Assembly: GCA_903837125.1 (NCBI GenBank)
Contig: CAILTG010000019.1
Span: forward strand, 1 to 37,265
Source: Candidatus Magasanikiibacteriota bacterium
Lineage (GTDB): Bacteria; Patescibacteriota; Patescibacteriia; Magasanikbacterales; UBA922
Reading direction: 5' to 3'
Length of the DNA stretch: 37,265 bases
How positions within the stretch are numbered: position 1 is the stretch's first letter; every line of letters starts with the position of its first letter. This document shows, one piece after another, positions 10,971 to 28,312 of this stretch. The translations under genes and the position numbers were made by a program. The notes under the pieces were generated by a model. That model worked only from the letters and a program-made list of their open reading frames with translations. It did not search any database and was not told the DNA's origin.

Positions 10971-11573
10971 ATGAGCAAGATCACAACGGGTCAGATCAGT
11001 GAGGTGATCCTCAAGGAAGGTCGAGGGGAATTCGGCGGCGAGTCCAGTGAGGACATCCAGTGGCTCATGGCCAATGGTGGTCAGAACTGGCGGAGCCTTC
11101 GGGGACTCCGTACGGGATCTCTCCTCATTGTCGGGGCCACCACCAAGTCGCCCGAACCGCCGCCCGTGAAGGTCGTCTCCGAATGGTCGAAGCTCTTCGG
11201 CCACATGCGGATCTGGGACTCGAACTTTAATGAGGACAACTTCCCGCTCGAGCCGGAGGCCGAGCTCCGTGAGGTTATCACACAAGAATTCGAGGGCATG
11301 GCTACGGGCTACGAGCGACTCGCCTGGGGTGAGTCCCAGGGGCTGGAGCTGTCCCTGCCATGCGCTACGGGCCTGTACCTGAAGGCCCGTCCGCAGCTCC
11401 AGCTGGAGCACCCGGTCATCGGTGGTGGCCGGTGGGCGGGCGGGGACGGCGACGTGTGCGTGCCGATCTTCAGCCGGTGCGACGGTCAGCCGGACGTCGG
11501 CCTGGGCAGGCTGGTCTTCGACTTCGGTCCGGGCTGCGTGTGGCTGTTCTCCCGCAAGTCGTCGGGGGTCTAG
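10971..11573 (+). CDS. DGR variable target protein, 200 aa, VR at its C-terminus
   Basis: This gene carries the variable region of the retroelement. Residues about 152-195 are encoded by VR 11426-11555 and the stop follows at 11571-11573, so diversity is confined to the C-terminal end as in known DGR targets. Compared with TR, 17 codons and 17 residues differ, mostly Asn replaced by Gly, Asp, Ser, Cys or Phe and Tyr by Cys, while the framework VPIF, RL, DF, VWLFSR is kept. The framework resembles the ligand-binding end of C-type-lectin-like DGR proteins (inference). The N-terminal part (MSKITTGQISEVILKEGRGE) is not recognised. There is no signal peptide or membrane helix. The gene is markedly GC-rich against AT-rich neighbours and has a strong GGAGG ribosome binding site. 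Confidence 0.9.
   Translation: MSKITTGQISEVILKEGRGEFGGESSEDIQWLMANGGQNWRSLRGLRTGSLLIVGATTKSPEPPPVKVVSEWSKLFGHMRIWDSNFNEDNFPLEPEAELREVITQEFEGMATGYERLAWGESQGLELSLPCATGLYLKARPQLQLEHPVIGGGRWAGGDGDVCVPIFSRCDGQPDVGLGRLVFDFGPGCVWLFSRKSSGV
11426..11555 (+). repeat. DGR variable region (VR)
   Basis: Homologous to TR 11987-12116. There are 24 differences, each at a TR adenine: 20 read G and 4 read T in VR; none reads C. The last 19 bp (11537-11555, CGTGTGGCTGTTCTCCCGC) are identical in both copies and fit the role of the initiation-of-mutagenic-homology tract. Beyond it the sequences diverge. Confidence 0.95.
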
Positions 11574-11631
11574 GGTTCTCGGAATCTTGGTCGGACGTAA
11601 GTTCGCTCGGGGTTTCGGTCCTGGGTCCCTT

Positions 11632-11686
11632 GGCCCTCGGCGCGTTCGTTGTTTCCTTCATCGGAGACAGCGACGCGCCGGGGGCT
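11632..11686. other. Long hairpin downstream of VR, possible retrohoming cruciform
   Basis: An outer stem of about 13 bp (11632-11644 with 11674-11686; core CCCTCGGCGCG with CGCGCCGGGGG) leads, past one bulged T, to an inner 11-bp stem (11646-11656 with 11663-11673) closed by a 6-nt loop. It lies 76 bp after the end of VR. In phage BPP-1 a DNA hairpin just past VR promotes retrohoming; that this one does so is inference. No T run follows, so it is a poor terminator. Confidence 0.6.
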
Positions 11687-11898
11687 TGTTCGTATTCAAA
11701 AAGTTTTTGGTATATAATACTTTAAGTTTCACAAAATAATGCGGCTTTGGCTGCATTTGAGAAACTTTATTTTTTCTTAATCCAGAATATAGTTTGGCTA
11801 CGGCCAGCTATAGCGTGACAAGAAAAAATGAAACAATAAAGATACTTGGTGACAAAAATCAGCGAATTTAAGATTCGGCATTAGCTACAGCCCGGAGA
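11687..11898. other. Spacer between target gene and TR
   Basis: AT-rich spacer. It has a TGgTATATAAT-like extended -10 (11708-11718, + strand) without a good -35, which might start the TR RNA, and a stem built on TGGC/GCCA near 11805-11820. No convincing gene is present; the overlapping GC-rich frames across 11360-11739 are shadows of the target gene. Confidence 0.4.
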
Positions 11899-11927
11899 GT
11901 CCCGCCTCAGCGGGATCCCGTTTTTTC
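11899..11927 (+). terminator. Terminator-like stem before TR
   Basis: A 6-bp stem TCCCGC-CTCA-GCGGGA, overlapping the palindrome CGGGATCCCG, is followed by TTTTTT. It may end the target-gene transcript before TR. The CCCGCCTC motif also recurs in other repeats of this window, so it may be repeat-derived. Confidence 0.45.
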
Positions 11928-11986
11928 ATTTTAAGGATCGGGATATTCAATGGGCAGTGTTTAGGATGGTATTTGTCATAACTGAA

Positions 11987-12116
11987 TGGCCAGTGGACGA
12001 ACGGGAACGGCAACGTGTACGTGCCGATCTTCAACCGGAACGACAGTCAGCCGAACGTCAACCTGAACAGGCTGGACAACGACTTCAATCCGAACTACGT
12101 GTGGCTGTTCTCCCGC
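11987..12116 (+). repeat. DGR template repeat (TR)
   Basis: The non-coding template for VR diversification. Read in the VR frame it gives an Asn/Tyr-rich sequence (NGNGNVYVPIFNRNDSQPNV and on to NYVWLFSRQ), with AAC codons at the positions that vary; AAC is the codon that yields widest diversity when its adenines change. It is GC-rich like the target gene although the flanks are AT-rich. Its + strand orientation matches both target and RT. It ends 11 bp before the 3' end of the inverted avd gene. Confidence 0.95.
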
Positions 12117-12127
12117 CAGTTTCTTTA

Positions 12128-12541
12128 TTAAGGAAAATTTTTGATTGGCGGTGGCATTTTAAAAAGATTTTGCCAGCCGCCAATCATTTTTCCCACAGAG
12201 AATAAAATTTGGGATAGGGAAGTGTATTTTTGATTATTTAATCCCTTGGTTTCCCAAAGAATTTTTAAAAAGAATTTTAGTGCATCAAATTTGGCACTTA
12301 ATTTTTTTATAAATTGCAATTTTTCTTCTCTGCTAGCATAGCCAGCCATTAAAGCCAGTTCTAAACATTCGGCAAATAAATTATCTATTCTGGTTCCAAG
12401 AGTAAATTTGGTATGTCGGGGAAGATTGTTTAAATAGCCATGCCAGAGTTTATAACCTTTTTCCAATTCTATTAAAATCGGGAAATTATCCTCATTCCGT
12501 CGGGGGGGGGGGCGACTTAAAAGATAAATTTGTATTATCAT
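12128..12541 (-). CDS. avd: Avd-like four-helix-bundle accessory protein (bAvd family)
   Basis: Accessory protein that binds the RT and the TR RNA in DGRs. The 137-residue product has the family pattern: FPILIELEKGYKLWHGYLNN, then LPRHTKFTLGTRIDNLFAEC, then KLDALKFFLKILWE-type and QILFSVGKMIGGW motifs near the end. It lies on the opposite strand from TR and RT. The only in-frame ATG upstream of the conserved part is at 12541-12539, which shares bases with the RT start (TCATGA). Between it and the conserved part the frame crosses 11 consecutive C (12512-12502 on this strand); lengths of 10 or 12 put a stop soon after. There is no clear ribosome binding site. A start after the tract would need a TTG or ATT codon. 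Confidence 0.88.
   Translation of the reverse strand: MIIQIYLLSRPPPRRNEDNFPILIELEKGYKLWHGYLNNLPRHTKFTLGTRIDNLFAECLELALMAGYASREEKLQFIKKLSAKFDALKFFLKILWETKGLNNQKYTSLSQILFSVGKMIGGWQNLFKMPPPIKNFP
12502..12512. repeat. Homopolymer G11 (C11 on avd strand)
   Basis: Eleven consecutive G within the N-terminal codons of avd and 27 nt upstream of the RT start. It is the longest G/C homopolymer seen in the window. By hand translation, only tract lengths with remainder 2 on division by 3 keep avd open. It may be a slippage-prone switch or an assembly/sequencing artefact. Confidence 0.85.
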
Positions 12542-13535
12542 GAAAATCCAGTTGCGTCATACATTTGAAGATATTATTAAATTAGAAAATTTGCTTTCTG
12601 CTTGGCAGGAGTTTATTTTGGGTAAGAAAAAGAAAAAAGATGTCCAAGTATTTTCTCGCGATTTACTGGATAATATTTTAACACTTCAGCAAGATTTAGC
12701 AAATAAAATATATCAGCATGGCGGTTACGAAGATTTTTATGTGAATGACCCAAAACGCCGGCATATTCACAAAGCCAGTGTCCGCGATCGTCTGCTTCAT
12801 CACGCCATTTATCGTATTTTGTATCCGTTTTTTGATAAAACTTTTATTGCTGATTCTTTTTCCTGTCGCAATAACAAAGGAATGCACAAAGCGTTAGACA
12901 GTTTTAGAGCAATGTTTTACAAAGTTAGCAAAAATGATCATTGCACTTGCTGGGTGTTGAAATGTGATATTAGGAAGTTTTTTGATAGTATTGATCATAA
13001 AATACTGTTAAGTATTTTGGCTAATTATATTTACGATAAAGATATTATGGATTTGTTAAGGAATATTGTTGAGAGTTATTCAAACAAGAGTGGAGTTGGC
13101 TTGCCACTCGGCAATCTCACTTCGCAACTTTTTGCCAATGTGTACATGAATATTTTTGATCAGTTTGTAAAACACGAATTAAAAGTTAAACATTATATCC
13201 GTTATGCCGATGATTTTGTTTTTCTTTCTATTGATAAAAAGTATTTGGAAAATTTAATACCAGAAATACAAAATTTTTTGTTGGAAAGATTAAAGTTAAC
13301 TTTACATCCCAATAAAATATTTTTACAAACGGTTGTTTCCGGTGTTGATTTTCTCGGTTGGAAACATTTTACCGATCACCGCCTACTCCGTAAGACAACA
13401 CAAAACAGAATGTTGAGAAGAATTATTGCAAGTCCGACAAAGGAGACATTGCAGTCATATTTGGGTTTACTAAAACATGGAAATACTGCAAAAGTTAGAG
13501 AGGAGTTGTTGAATGAGTGGTGGTTTATGAATTGA
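12540..13535 (+). CDS. DGR reverse transcriptase
   Basis: Copies TR RNA into adenine-mutagenised cDNA that replaces VR. The 331-residue protein has RT motifs in order: KCDIRKFFDSIDH (Asp143), GLPLGNLTSQLFANVYMN (187-204; the LGNLTSQ form is characteristic of DGR RTs rather than group II introns), RYADDFVFL (YADD 222-225), and FLGW (about 271-274). There is no maturase or endonuclease domain. The start MKIQLRHTFED fits the family; the ATG is overlapped by the divergent avd ATG. It is AT-rich like the genome, unlike target and TR. It converges on murJ with a 14-bp gap. Confidence 0.96.
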   Translation: MKIQLRHTFEDIIKLENLLSAWQEFILGKKKKKDVQVFSRDLLDNILTLQQDLANKIYQHGGYEDFYVNDPKRRHIHKASVRDRLLHHAIYRILYPFFDKTFIADSFSCRNNKGMHKALDSFRAMFYKVSKNDHCTCWVLKCDIRKFFDSIDHKILLSILANYIYDKDIMDLLRNIVESYSNKSGVGLPLGNLTSQLFANVYMNIFDQFVKHELKVKHYIRYADDFVFLSIDKKYLENLIPEIQNFLLERLKLTLHPNKIFLQTVVSGVDFLGWKHFTDHRLLRKTTQNRMLRRIIASPTKETLQSYLGLLKHGNTAKVREELLNEWWFMN

Positions 13536-25645: not shown

Positions 25646-26983
25646 ATGGATCTAAAAATAAAATCAAAATCTTTTCCAGATAATCCTGGCATTTATCTTT
25701 TTTATAATTCAAAAAAAGAGCTTATTTATGTTGGCAAGGCAACGAGTTTGAGGAATCGCGTACACTCTTATTTTCGCTACAGTGATCACTCACCCCTTGC
25801 CCCTCTTTACAATAGAGAGGGGAATCGACCGATAGAAGCGATGATTCATGAAGTACAAGACATTAAGACCATTCAGACTGATTCAGTTTTGGAAGCGATT
25901 ATTTTGGAAGCAAATTATATAAAAAAATTTCAACCCAAGTATAATGTGGATTTGAAAGATGATAAATCTTGGGTGCATATTTGTATTACCAAAGATGAAT
26001 ATCCTAAAGTTGTAACAGTTCGGGAACATGAATTAAAAAATTTCCAAATTTTTTCCGCCACAGCGGAATCCCGTCTTCATAGCGGGACAATTTCCAATTT
26101 CCAATACGATTTTGGTCCATATCCAGGATTAAAAACGCGGGAAATGATGAAGTTGTTGCGTAAATTATTTTACATATCCGATTGTCAATCACCTGTAGGA
26201 ACGCGCCATGGCGCGTTCTCGTCAAAACCATGTTTTTACCGCCAAATTGGTCAATGTTTGGGAGTATGTACTGGTGAGATTAGTCCGCAAGATTATAATA
26301 AGAAAGTAATCAGACCGTTGGTGCAATTTTTAAGCGGTAGGAAAAAAAGTTTATTAAAAAATTTAGAAAATGAAATGAAATTGGCTTCAAAAAATCATGA
26401 ATTTGAAGAGGCAGGAAGACTACGGGATCAAATTTGGCAATTAAACAGGATACAAGATATTGCACTACTTAACAAAAATTTTGTTGAGGATAATTTCAAA
26501 TTTCAAATTTCAAATTTCAAATTTTCGCGTATAGAGGGTTATGATATATCAAACTTGGGCTCCTCAAATATGGTTGGCAGTATGGTAGTGTTTGATCAGA
26601 ATGGACCAATAAAAAGTGAATATCGGAAATTTAAAATAAAAAATGTGGTGGGACAGAGCGATGTGGATTGTTTAGGTGAAGTGTTGGAACGACGTTTAAA
26701 TCATCTTGAATGGAAATTGCCGGATGTTATTCTTGTTGATGGGGGATTGTCACAGGTGAACGCAGTTTGTAAAGTTATAAAGTTAAAAAGTTATAAAGTT
26801 CCAGTAATTGGAATTGCCAAGGGGCCGGAAAGAAAGAAAAATGAATTTATTTTAGGAGAAAAAAATAGAAATTTTATAAAATGGGTGAATGAAAATAGAA
26901 ATTTATTAATTCAAGTTCGTGATGAGGCACATAGGTTTGCAATTGCCTTCCATAGACAAAGAAGAGGTAAAATGATAGTATAG
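25646..26983 (+). CDS. uvrC: UvrABC system protein C, short form without C-terminal HhH domain
   Basis: Dual-incision endonuclease of nucleotide excision repair. The N-terminal GIY-YIG domain (NPGIYLFYN, LIYVGKATSLRNRV, about 13-40), a Cys pair (CFYRQIGQCLGVC), a UVR motif (FEEAGRLRDQI, about 254-264), and the RNase H-like domain (EGYDISNLGSSNMVGSMVVF, ILVDGGLSQ, RDEAHRFAIAFHRQRR) are all visible. The protein ends right after HRQRRGKMIV at 445 residues, whereas typical UvrC is about 600 and carries tandem helix-hairpin-helix motifs; these are missing. Several segments are repeat-derived: PLAPLYNREGNR (hairpin), SATAESRLHSG (hairpins), VGTRHGAFS (palindrome), NFKFQISNFKF (7-bp repeats) and CKVIKLKSYKV. 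Confidence 0.95.
   Translation: MDLKIKSKSFPDNPGIYLFYNSKKELIYVGKATSLRNRVHSYFRYSDHSPLAPLYNREGNRPIEAMIHEVQDIKTIQTDSVLEAIILEANYIKKFQPKYNVDLKDDKSWVHICITKDEYPKVVTVREHELKNFQIFSATAESRLHSGTISNFQYDFGPYPGLKTREMMKLLRKLFYISDCQSPVGTRHGAFSSKPCFYRQIGQCLGVCTGEISPQDYNKKVIRPLVQFLSGRKKSLLKNLENEMKLASKNHEFEEAGRLRDQIWQLNRIQDIALLNKNFVEDNFKFQISNFKFSRIEGYDISNLGSSNMVGSMVVFDQNGPIKSEYRKFKIKNVVGQSDVDCLGEVLERRLNHLEWKLPDVILVDGGLSQVNAVCKVIKLKSYKVPVIGIAKGPERKKNEFILGEKNRNFIKWVNENRNLLIQVRDEAHRFAIAFHRQRRGKMIV
25800..25822. repeat. Hairpin repeat in uvrC
   Basis: CCCCTCT pairs with AGAGGGG across a 9-nt loop, within codons of the segment after the GIY-YIG motif. It resembles the CCCTCCCC...GGGG hairpin in uvrB (18370-18402). Confidence 0.65.
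26050..26092. repeat. Twin hairpins in uvrC
   Basis: TTCCGC/GCGGAA with a 4-nt loop is followed by TCCCG/CGGGA; the pair codes for SATAESRLHSG in UvrC. The CCCG/CGGG unit is like that before the DGR TR. Confidence 0.6.
26199..26218. repeat. Perfect 20-bp palindrome in uvrC
   Basis: GAACGCGCCATGGCGCGTTC is its own reverse complement over all 20 bases. It is GC-rich in an AT-rich gene and is translated as part of VGTRHGAFS, a segment that does not match usual UvrC. Confidence 0.8.
26494..26521. repeat. Four tandem TTTCAAA heptamers in uvrC
   Basis: Four exact 7-bp units. Three units equal seven codons, so they give a heptapeptide period (NFKFQIS then NFKF). The same period is seen in lepA at 8951-8978 with unit TTCCAAT. 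Confidence 0.8.
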
Positions 26984-27018: not shown

Positions 27019-27222
27019 ATGCCTGAAGGAAAACCGGAGTTAAGTTTAGATGAAGAAATTTATTGTAGAGGAAAGAGAAAAAAGGTAACTGTAGATAGTT
27101 GTGAAACTAATTTTGTTGATGCCAATGCTTTAGAAGATAAAAACAGTGCTTGTTATAGATGTCCAAAAGGTCGGGAAGTAAGGGTATCATTAGCTGATGA
27201 TGTTAATAAAAAAGATGAATAG
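27019..27222 (+). CDS. Small Cys-containing protein, 67 aa
   Basis: Not recognised. Starting from MPEGKPELSLDEEIYCRGKR, it has four Cys: C16, C28, and the pair C44-x2-C47 (ACYRCPKG), a spacing that could bind one zinc. The rest is charged. ATG 27019 is preferred; the upstream in-frame ATG (26992) would add a short hydrophobic leader and overlap the region just after uvrC. It is 35 nt after uvrC and may be on the same mRNA. A strong hairpin follows at 27271. Confidence 0.65.
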   Translation: MPEGKPELSLDEEIYCRGKRKKVTVDSCETNFVDANALEDKNSACYRCPKGREVRVSLADDVNKKDE

Positions 27223-27267: not shown

Positions 27268-27600
27268 AATAAAAACCCCGCGTCAAACGCGGGGTTTTTT
27301 CATAAACCAAAAATCACCCCGGAGGCGGGATGATTTTTGGGAAGGGCCAATGCATTGCTCCGTATCTGTAGGTGCGCCTGGCGGTAGCAACTCAGATACT
27401 TAACAATGCATTGGCGGTGGGCCGTTTTTTCGGAGGGTGCGCGAAGCTAATCGCGCTTAAAGCTGACTCGGGTATTTAACCCCTATCCTGCTAGACTCTC
27501 AGAGCCTCTCTGCTTGCAATGGCTTCAGATCACCACAGCAGAAAGACACAACCCATTTTTATTCTCAATTATTGAGTACAAAAATAGGCGTAAAAGTACA
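27268..27600 (-). ncRNA. Candidate structured non-coding RNA, about 330 nt, class unknown
   Basis: A minus-strand unit with a promoter (27635-27607) and a terminator (27299-27271) but no credible ORF. Visible elements, in + coordinates: a 10-bp stem CCAAAAATCA/TGATTTTTGG (27308-27341); a long rod (27346-27415) with CCAATGCATTG/CAATGCATTGG, an internal loop, and GTATCTG/CAGATAC; a stem with GCGCG/CGCGC (27438-27455); and a CTGCT/AGCAG stem near 27507-27540. It is GC-richer than flanks. It lacks the signature sequences of RNase P RNA, tmRNA and SRP RNA. The rod is also followed by TTTTTT on the + strand, so the sense could be the opposite. Confidence 0.5.
27271..27300. terminator. Bidirectional terminator between the Cys-rich gene and the RNA locus
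   Basis: A perfect 13-bp stem AAAAACCCCGCGT/ACGCGGGGTTTTT with a 3-nt loop; T runs on both strands. It would end transcription of the uvrC side and of the minus-strand RNA. Confidence 0.9.
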
Positions 27601-27606
27601 ATATCT

Positions 27607-27635
27607 CTTATAGCAATACTGTTCTGTTTTGTCAA
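27607..27635 (-). promoter_or_regulatory. Promoter of the candidate ncRNA
   Basis: On the minus strand TTGACA (27635-27630), a 17-bp spacer and TATAAG (27612-27607). It matches consensus at 11 of 12 positions and faces the structured region. Confidence 0.75.
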
Positions 27636-27723
27636 GGGACTACTAATCTTAACACTAAATATTTGTACTGCTTTGTACTTCGTAACTTTAGCGAAGGGGT
27701 GTGGATAAAGTGGGGTAGAATAC

Positions 27724-27752
27724 TTGAATTGTGTTTAAGAGTGGTATATAAT
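27724..27752 (+). promoter_or_regulatory. Promoter of mraZ
   Basis: TTGAAT at 27724-27729, a 17-bp spacer and TATAAT at 27747-27752. It is followed directly by the MraZ-box-like repeats. Confidence 0.7.
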
Positions 27753-27776
27753 GGTAGTAGGTGGGAAAAAGTGGGG
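27752..27776 (+). promoter_or_regulatory. MraZ operator boxes
   Basis: TGGTA (27752), TGGGA (27762) and TGGGG (27772) recur with an exact 10-bp period just after the -10 box. MraZ of other bacteria represses its own operon by binding TGGGN repeats separated by 5 bp, so these are probable autoregulatory sites. The first box is degenerate. Confidence 0.65.
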
Positions 27777-27797
27777 AAAGATTTCCATGGATTTCTT

Positions 27798-27866
27798 TAC
27801 ACAGATCACACGGATCACAGAATAAATACTATGCTTGTCTATTTAATCTGTGCTATCTGTGTTAAG
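27798..27866. repeat. Inverted CACAGAT repeats in the mraZ leader
   Basis: ACACAGATCACACGGATCAC at the left faces TCTGTGCTATCTGTGTT at the right (about 27846-27865). It could form an interrupted stem in the 5' leader shortly before the mraZ ATG. Confidence 0.6.
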
Positions 27867-27880
27867 AAATTAGTGGTTTT

Positions 27881-28312
27881 ATGTTTATTGGTGAATACAA
27901 CCACAATTTAGATGACAAAGGACGTTTGGCAGTGCCTAAAAAATTTCGTTCAGATTTGTCAAAAGGTGCAGTGGTTACCAAAGGATTGGATAACTGTTTG
28001 TTTTTGTATACCAAAAAAGAATGGCAAAAATTGGCCGAGAAGCTGGCTAGTTTACCTTTTGCTCAAGCCAACACTCGTGCTTTTGCACGTTTAATGTTAG
28101 CTGGCGCTATGGACGTGGATATTGATAAACAAGGCCGAATTATTTTGCCGGAATATTTACGTGAATTTGCTGGTGTAAAAAAGGAAGTGGTGGTAGCTGG
28201 TTTATATTCACGATTGGAAATCTGGGACAGTCAAAAGTGGGCTGAATATAAAAAGAGAACTGAGGTAGAGAGTAATGTAATAGCTGAGCAAATGGGTGCT
28301 TTGGGAGTGTAA
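27881..28312 (+). CDS. mraZ: Transcriptional regulator MraZ
   Basis: DNA-binding repressor at the head of the division and cell-wall (dcw) cluster. The 143-residue protein carries two SpoVT/AbrB-like half-sites: GEYNHNLDDKGRLAVPKKFR (4-23) and AMDVDIDKQGRIILPEYLRE (about 73-92), each with the DxKGR.xxP core. Length is normal for the family. It is followed by rsmH, the standard partner, after 121 bp of AT-rich repeat. Confidence 0.97.
   Translation: MFIGEYNHNLDDKGRLAVPKKFRSDLSKGAVVTKGLDNCLFLYTKKEWQKLAEKLASLPFAQANTRAFARLMLAGAMDVDIDKQGRIILPEYLREFAGVKKEVVVAGLYSRLEIWDSQKWAEYKKRTEVESNVIAEQMGALGV

Follow-up and report, generated by a model that had tools for sequence, protein, structure and literature searches.

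The described systems that come closest to the locus considered here are the regulatory small RNAs encoded between bacterial genes, with which it shares a sigma-70 promoter, a series of stem-loops, an exposed linker, a Rho-independent terminator, the lack of an open reading frame and a narrow phylogenetic range. Bacterial SRP RNA (RF00169 and RF01854) is also similar in its approximate length and in forming a rod-like hairpin. A third likeness is to a group of small genes that occupy the same chromosomal spacer in related genomes and which share with the locus their strand, a TTGACA-17 promoter, a terminator on the uvrC side and a raised GC content. Hardly any work exists on the small RNAs of Patescibacteria; our literature search revealed no paper combining the terms "Magasanikbacteria" and "small RNA", and neither "noncoding" nor "small RNA" occurs in the text of a 2024 perspective on the Patescibacteria. 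A unit consisting of promoter, RNA and terminator, and having no relatives, would exemplify an orphan small RNA of this group, and the locus described below constitutes, at present, a single unconfirmed case.

The locus is located in a genome of Candidatus Magasanikbacteria, which are tiny bacteria dependent on a host, within a stretch of 37,265 nucleotides (contig CAILTG010000019.1) referred to as the window. It is set between uvrC, which is followed by a small open reading frame on the plus strand (27019-27222) yielding no Pfam match, and mraZ (Table 1). The closest UvrC sequences found were those of Magasanikbacteria. The hallmarks of a small RNA, its own promoter, an intrinsic terminator and the absence of an open reading frame, are present as sequence signals. 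We consider the chances about even (a probability of roughly 0.5) that the locus is a real, transcribed non-coding RNA constituting a stand-alone unit on the minus strand. Probably it represents a small RNA that arose recently within one lineage, or else what is left of an inserted gene; a new class is not proven.

Table 1. Features of the uvrC-mraZ region, with positions given for the whole window
Feature	Positions	Strand	Basis or details
uvrC, convergent neighbour	25646-26983	+	Pfam UvrC_RNaseH_dom, UVR, GIY-YIG
Inferred non-coding transcript, about 270-330 nt	27271-27602	-	Placed between the promoter and the terminators; folding z -10.1; lacks a credible ORF; predicted start near 27602-27600, predicted end at either terminator (27307 or 27271)
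Intrinsic terminator	27271-27299	both	Hairpin/terminator scan; perfect 13-bp stem (27271-27283/27287-27299) and T tract
First terminator-like hairpin	27307-27340	-	Hairpin scan; 15 bp, 93% paired, T-rich, CCAAAAAUCAUCCCG/CGGGGUGAUUUUUGG
Central rod	27346-27415	-	Fold, z -7.8 alone; 12-bp outer stem, 7-bp inner stem, apical domain
Single-stranded C-rich linker	27432-27438	-	ACCCUCC; largely open, unpaired with a probability of 0.68 on average, 1.4 kcal/mol needed to open it
Middle region, P2, P3 and P4	27440-27550	-	MFE and partition function; weakly more stable than shuffles
P2, long hairpin	within 27440-27550	-	CUUUCUGCU.../AGCAGAGAG
P3, hairpin	within 27440-27550	-	GGGU-UAAAU-ACCC with 2x2 internal loop
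P4, hairpin	within 27440-27550	-	GCGCGA/UUCGCGC
5' A/U-rich hairpin	27551-27590	-	MFE and partition function; GCCUAUUUUUGUACUCAAUAAUUGAGAAUAAAAAUGGGU
Sigma-70-type promoter	27607-27635	-	Sequence, 11/12 scan; -35 TTGACA 27635-27630, 17-nt spacer, -10 TATAAG 27612-27607
mraZ, divergent neighbour	27881-28312	+	Pfam MraZ

Transcription signals and predicted fold

A first-pass annotation of this DNA had described a GC-rich, stem-rich region devoid of open reading frames, faced by a promoter agreeing with the consensus at 11 of 12 positions and ended by a 13-bp terminator, and these elements were all recovered. The promoter, TTGACA-17-TATAAG on the minus strand, shows the agreement claimed for it and is passed over by a promoter scan demanding T at the last position of the -10 box. 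The window contains six sites that match at 11 or more of the 12 positions, where Markov shuffling yields 2.0 on average. Of the five besides this one, three are found 70-120 nt ahead of starts resembling those of typA, uvrA and rplU. In view of these numbers, the match is suggestive; it would lend good support to a transcription unit but is not decisive. At the opposite end, the 13-bp stem is perfect and is associated with a T tract, and a further hairpin of 15 bp lies at 27307-27340. The 13-bp hairpin probably also terminates the transcript arriving from the uvrC side, as judged from its sequence.

GC content reaches 45-51% at the RNA locus against about 30-35% in its surroundings. There is no credible open reading frame on the minus strand of the locus, where nothing exceeds 36 codons or carries a good start; the two longest frames, of 35 and 36 codons, both begin with TTG and one of them starts inside the -35 box itself.

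When folded as RNA, the minus strand between 27268 and 27600 attains -149 kcal/mol (z -10.1), with none of 100 shuffles being equally stable, while the plus strand of the same region yields z -5.6. The strand bias becomes clearer when the terminators are left out, with values of -7.2 for the minus strand and -2.2 for the plus strand. Across the 37 kb, a survey of 188 segments of 200 nt gave a mean z of -0.6 (sd 2.0), and the minimum, -8.3, was that of the minus-strand segment at 27341, a position which had been added on purpose. The second strongest signal in the survey came from a region, 10971-13535, which on its sequence features is likely to be a diversity-generating retroelement. It includes a variable repeat (11426-11559), a template-like copy that is 81% identical (11987-12120) and a reverse transcriptase gene (12540-13532) matching Pfam RVT_1, and the target gene at 10971 is GC-rich, carries a Shine-Dalgarno motif and has strong hairpins on its flanks.

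The predicted fold of the RNA is a chain of separate hairpins over which the signal is unevenly distributed, most of it residing in the hairpins. Thus, the rod taken alone gives z -7.8, but segments 27423-27560 (z -2.8) and 27423-27530 (z -1.7) surpass shuffles in stability only slightly. The rod had earlier been placed at 27346-27415 and assigned perfect stems of 11 and 7 bp; both the rod and its inner stem of 7 bp were confirmed, whereas the outer stem proved to consist of 12 perfect base pairs rather than 11.

The outer arms of the rod contain a 10-bp palindrome, CAATGCATTG, which occurs at these two places (27348 and 27404) and nowhere else in the window, and since DNA, like RNA, can adopt such a rod, the paired palindromes might act at the DNA level, as operators, a cruciform or a mobile hairpin, with the RNA fold arising as a by-product. 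We consider this improbable because the rod is present as a single copy in the genome and is without a match in viral contigs, while the strand bias in folding and the pairing of a promoter with a terminator point to RNA.

Comparison with known RNA families and search for relatives

No Rfam family attained its gathering score anywhere in the window and, when the threshold was relaxed to E<=10, the locus produced only terminator-shaped or chance matches that were far under the cut-off. Nearly all of these low-scoring matches, including STnc370, Leu_leader and rnk, fell on terminator hairpins and were rejected. The covariance search therefore bears out the earlier statement that the structured RNA is unassigned and shows no match to RNase P RNA, tmRNA, 6S RNA or SRP RNA.

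Its length of 270-330 nt, and possession of its own promoter and terminator, would be compatible with a very divergent form of one of these housekeeping RNAs. RNase P RNA (RF00010) and tmRNA (RF00023) of this genome are, however, encoded on other contigs, C21 (157.7 bits) and C38 (125.8 bits), respectively; the RNase P model has no match at the locus and ARAGORN detected no tmRNA in the window. There is likewise no Rfam match to 6S RNA at the locus, and the separate hairpins do not conform to the shape of 6S RNA, which is one long rod interrupted by a central bubble.

SRP RNA was examined hard because neither SRP model detects one in the genome or the family. At the locus, RF00169 and RF01854 both gave no match at E<=10. 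The former yielded none in the whole genome even at this threshold, and was absent from the family (46 genomes) and from 115 genomes drawn across the class, while the latter was found in none of 39 genomes. Moreover, no Ffh M domain (PF02978) was found in this genome, which is 98% complete, while 14 of 14 controls have one. The SRP pathway has apparently been lost here, in agreement with the remark that SRP subunits are missing in many CPR bacteria (PMC8080830), and taken together these results imply that no SRP RNA is to be expected. The plus strand of the rod does show a faint AGG...AGCA likeness to the SRP apical loop; no good plus-strand promoter faces the rod, and with neither a model match nor an Ffh M domain we exclude SRP RNA with good confidence. 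The lack of any homologue in related genomes is itself unlike a housekeeping RNA, and we regard an origin from any of these families as very improbable. The suggestion in the first-pass annotation that a known RNA might be present in unusual form is unsupported, given the lack of Rfam matches, the presence of RNase P RNA and tmRNA elsewhere and the exclusion of SRP RNA.

Searches for relatives were equally negative. BLASTn against 144 related genomes returned the locus itself and short matches only, and the short matches that were inspected, A/T-rich stretches or generic terminator hairpins, were attributed to chance. Two covariance models, R1 for the 139-nt 5' part and R2 for the 82-nt rod, each built from one sequence and of limited sensitivity, yielded no credible relative in the same genomes, a single match appearing at E 0.3. 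Neither search therefore detected a homologue with covarying base pairs among the 144 relatives, and covariation support for the fold is zero. Phage records, plasmid records and viral contigs were also searched without a match to the locus, and a viral, phage or plasmid origin was rejected.

A lack of conservation, which the earlier annotation had itself named as counting against its proposal of a new class, was encountered everywhere searched, and the proposal gained no support from either BLASTn or covariance models. The set of 144 genomes is without congeneric species, such that a genus-restricted RNA would escape it, and negative homology from such a set cannot separate an orphan RNA from a remnant. 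We consider it unlikely that the locus represents a new structured RNA class that is confined to a single small branch of the Magasanikbacteria, occupies a chromosomal insertion site as cargo and has its own function in these host-dependent bacteria.

The uvrC-mraZ spacer and its cargo

Fourteen of the examined genomes, that of the window among them, have mraZ next after uvrC. Seven of the intervening spacers (L040, L041, L043, L044, L056, L063 and L065) are near-empty, extending over 210-330 nt, and the remaining spacers, of 700-1025 nt, carry differing cargo located mostly on the minus strand. L039 and L049 contain Ala/Glu-rich, GC-rich (65%) minus-strand genes, L047 and L048 a Nudix-like gene (named from its sequence), and L061 another gene encoding 163 amino acids. 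The place of the RNA is taken in L039 by unrelated GC-rich coding cargo; the RNA locus shows no similarity to the spacer cassettes of its relatives, and a synteny search of their uvrC-mraZ spacers revealed no sequence resembling the RNA. From 27703 to the start of mraZ, in contrast, promoter and leader are closely similar in sequence to their counterparts in L039, and the flanks are therefore conserved while the cargo is variable. In Magasanikbacteria, the spacer thus acts as a site where insertion of minus-strand cargo is tolerated, situated after the uvrC terminator and before the divergent mraZ promoter, and it illustrates how reduced genomes take up unrelated cargo without interrupting either neighbour.

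Small GC-rich genes, such as those of L039 and L049 (about 65%), form islets in the AT-rich genomes of Magasanikbacteria (L039, L049/L069, L072 and L002), and some of them carry Shine-Dalgarno motifs and TTGACA-type promoters. A structured 3' region is common to L039 and L049.

Several sequence elements also accompany mraZ, which has its own promoter (TTGAAT-17-TATAAT, 27724-27752). Repeats of the form TGGK-N6-TGGG-N6-TGGG, together with AAAGTGGGG, surround this promoter (27703-27776) and are kept in relatives; they resemble the sites of MraZ-box autoregulation. Between promoter and start lies an inverted repeat of 25 nt (84%), ACACAGATCACACGGAT/ATCTGTGCTATCTGTGT (27791-27870), also present in L039. 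The motif TGCTTGT(C/A)T upstream of mraZ (27831-27880 in the window) occurs in all 14 uvrC-mraZ spacers and in L074. It opens a short reading frame, (M/V)-L-V-(Y/F/S/C)-(L/I), and may represent a leader peptide, or a leader element, conserved ahead of mraZ.

The cargo bears directly on the main rival to a functional RNA, namely that a cargo gene once stood here and has left behind a region that is transcribed but untranslated and functionless. This would comprise the promoter, 5' leader, structured 3' tail and terminators of a GC-rich minus-strand cassette, its coding sequence having disappeared or decayed. Minus-strand TTGACA promoters with 17-nt spacing precede the spacer genes of L039, L049 and L061, the first two GC-rich and the third encoding 163 amino acids, and the locus matches these cassettes in its position, its strand, the type of its promoter and its elevated GC content. 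It shares no sequence similarity with them, however, no longer reading frame can be traced in it, and a near-perfect rod is not expected to survive in decaying sequence. We regard a cargo remnant as possible, though on balance doubtful.

A possible mode of action and comparison with known systems

If the locus does encode a functional small RNA, it would most likely act as a lineage-specific regulator, perhaps by base pairing, a tentative model in which we place little confidence. RNA polymerase would start near 27600 on the minus strand and generate, in order, the 5' hairpin, a run of stem-loops, the stable rod and the two terminator hairpins, with the rod and terminator hairpins shielding the 3' end. 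Exposed stretches, for example ACCCUCC (27438-27432) or the P2 loop, could then pair with target mRNAs, ACCCUCC being a candidate seed for GGAGG-like sites. As Shine-Dalgarno-like motifs are found at few gene starts (two of the 20 examined in the window, one being that of the retroelement target gene at 10971), a C-rich seed could, speculatively, be selective for genes bearing them. A duplex scan of the exposed segments against the gene starts of this window only gave scores not clearly beyond background.

Compared with known systems, the locus differs from the minus-strand cargo genes of L039, L049/L069 and L061, which encode proteins of about 100-163 amino acids, in having neither an open reading frame nor sequence similarity to them. 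It is distinguished from bacterial SRP RNA by the absence of a covariance-model match and by a host genome without a detectable Ffh M domain. Relative to known regulatory small RNAs, the predicted RNA belongs to no conserved family and is longer than most, and its host is a Patescibacterium with genes mostly lacking Shine-Dalgarno motifs.
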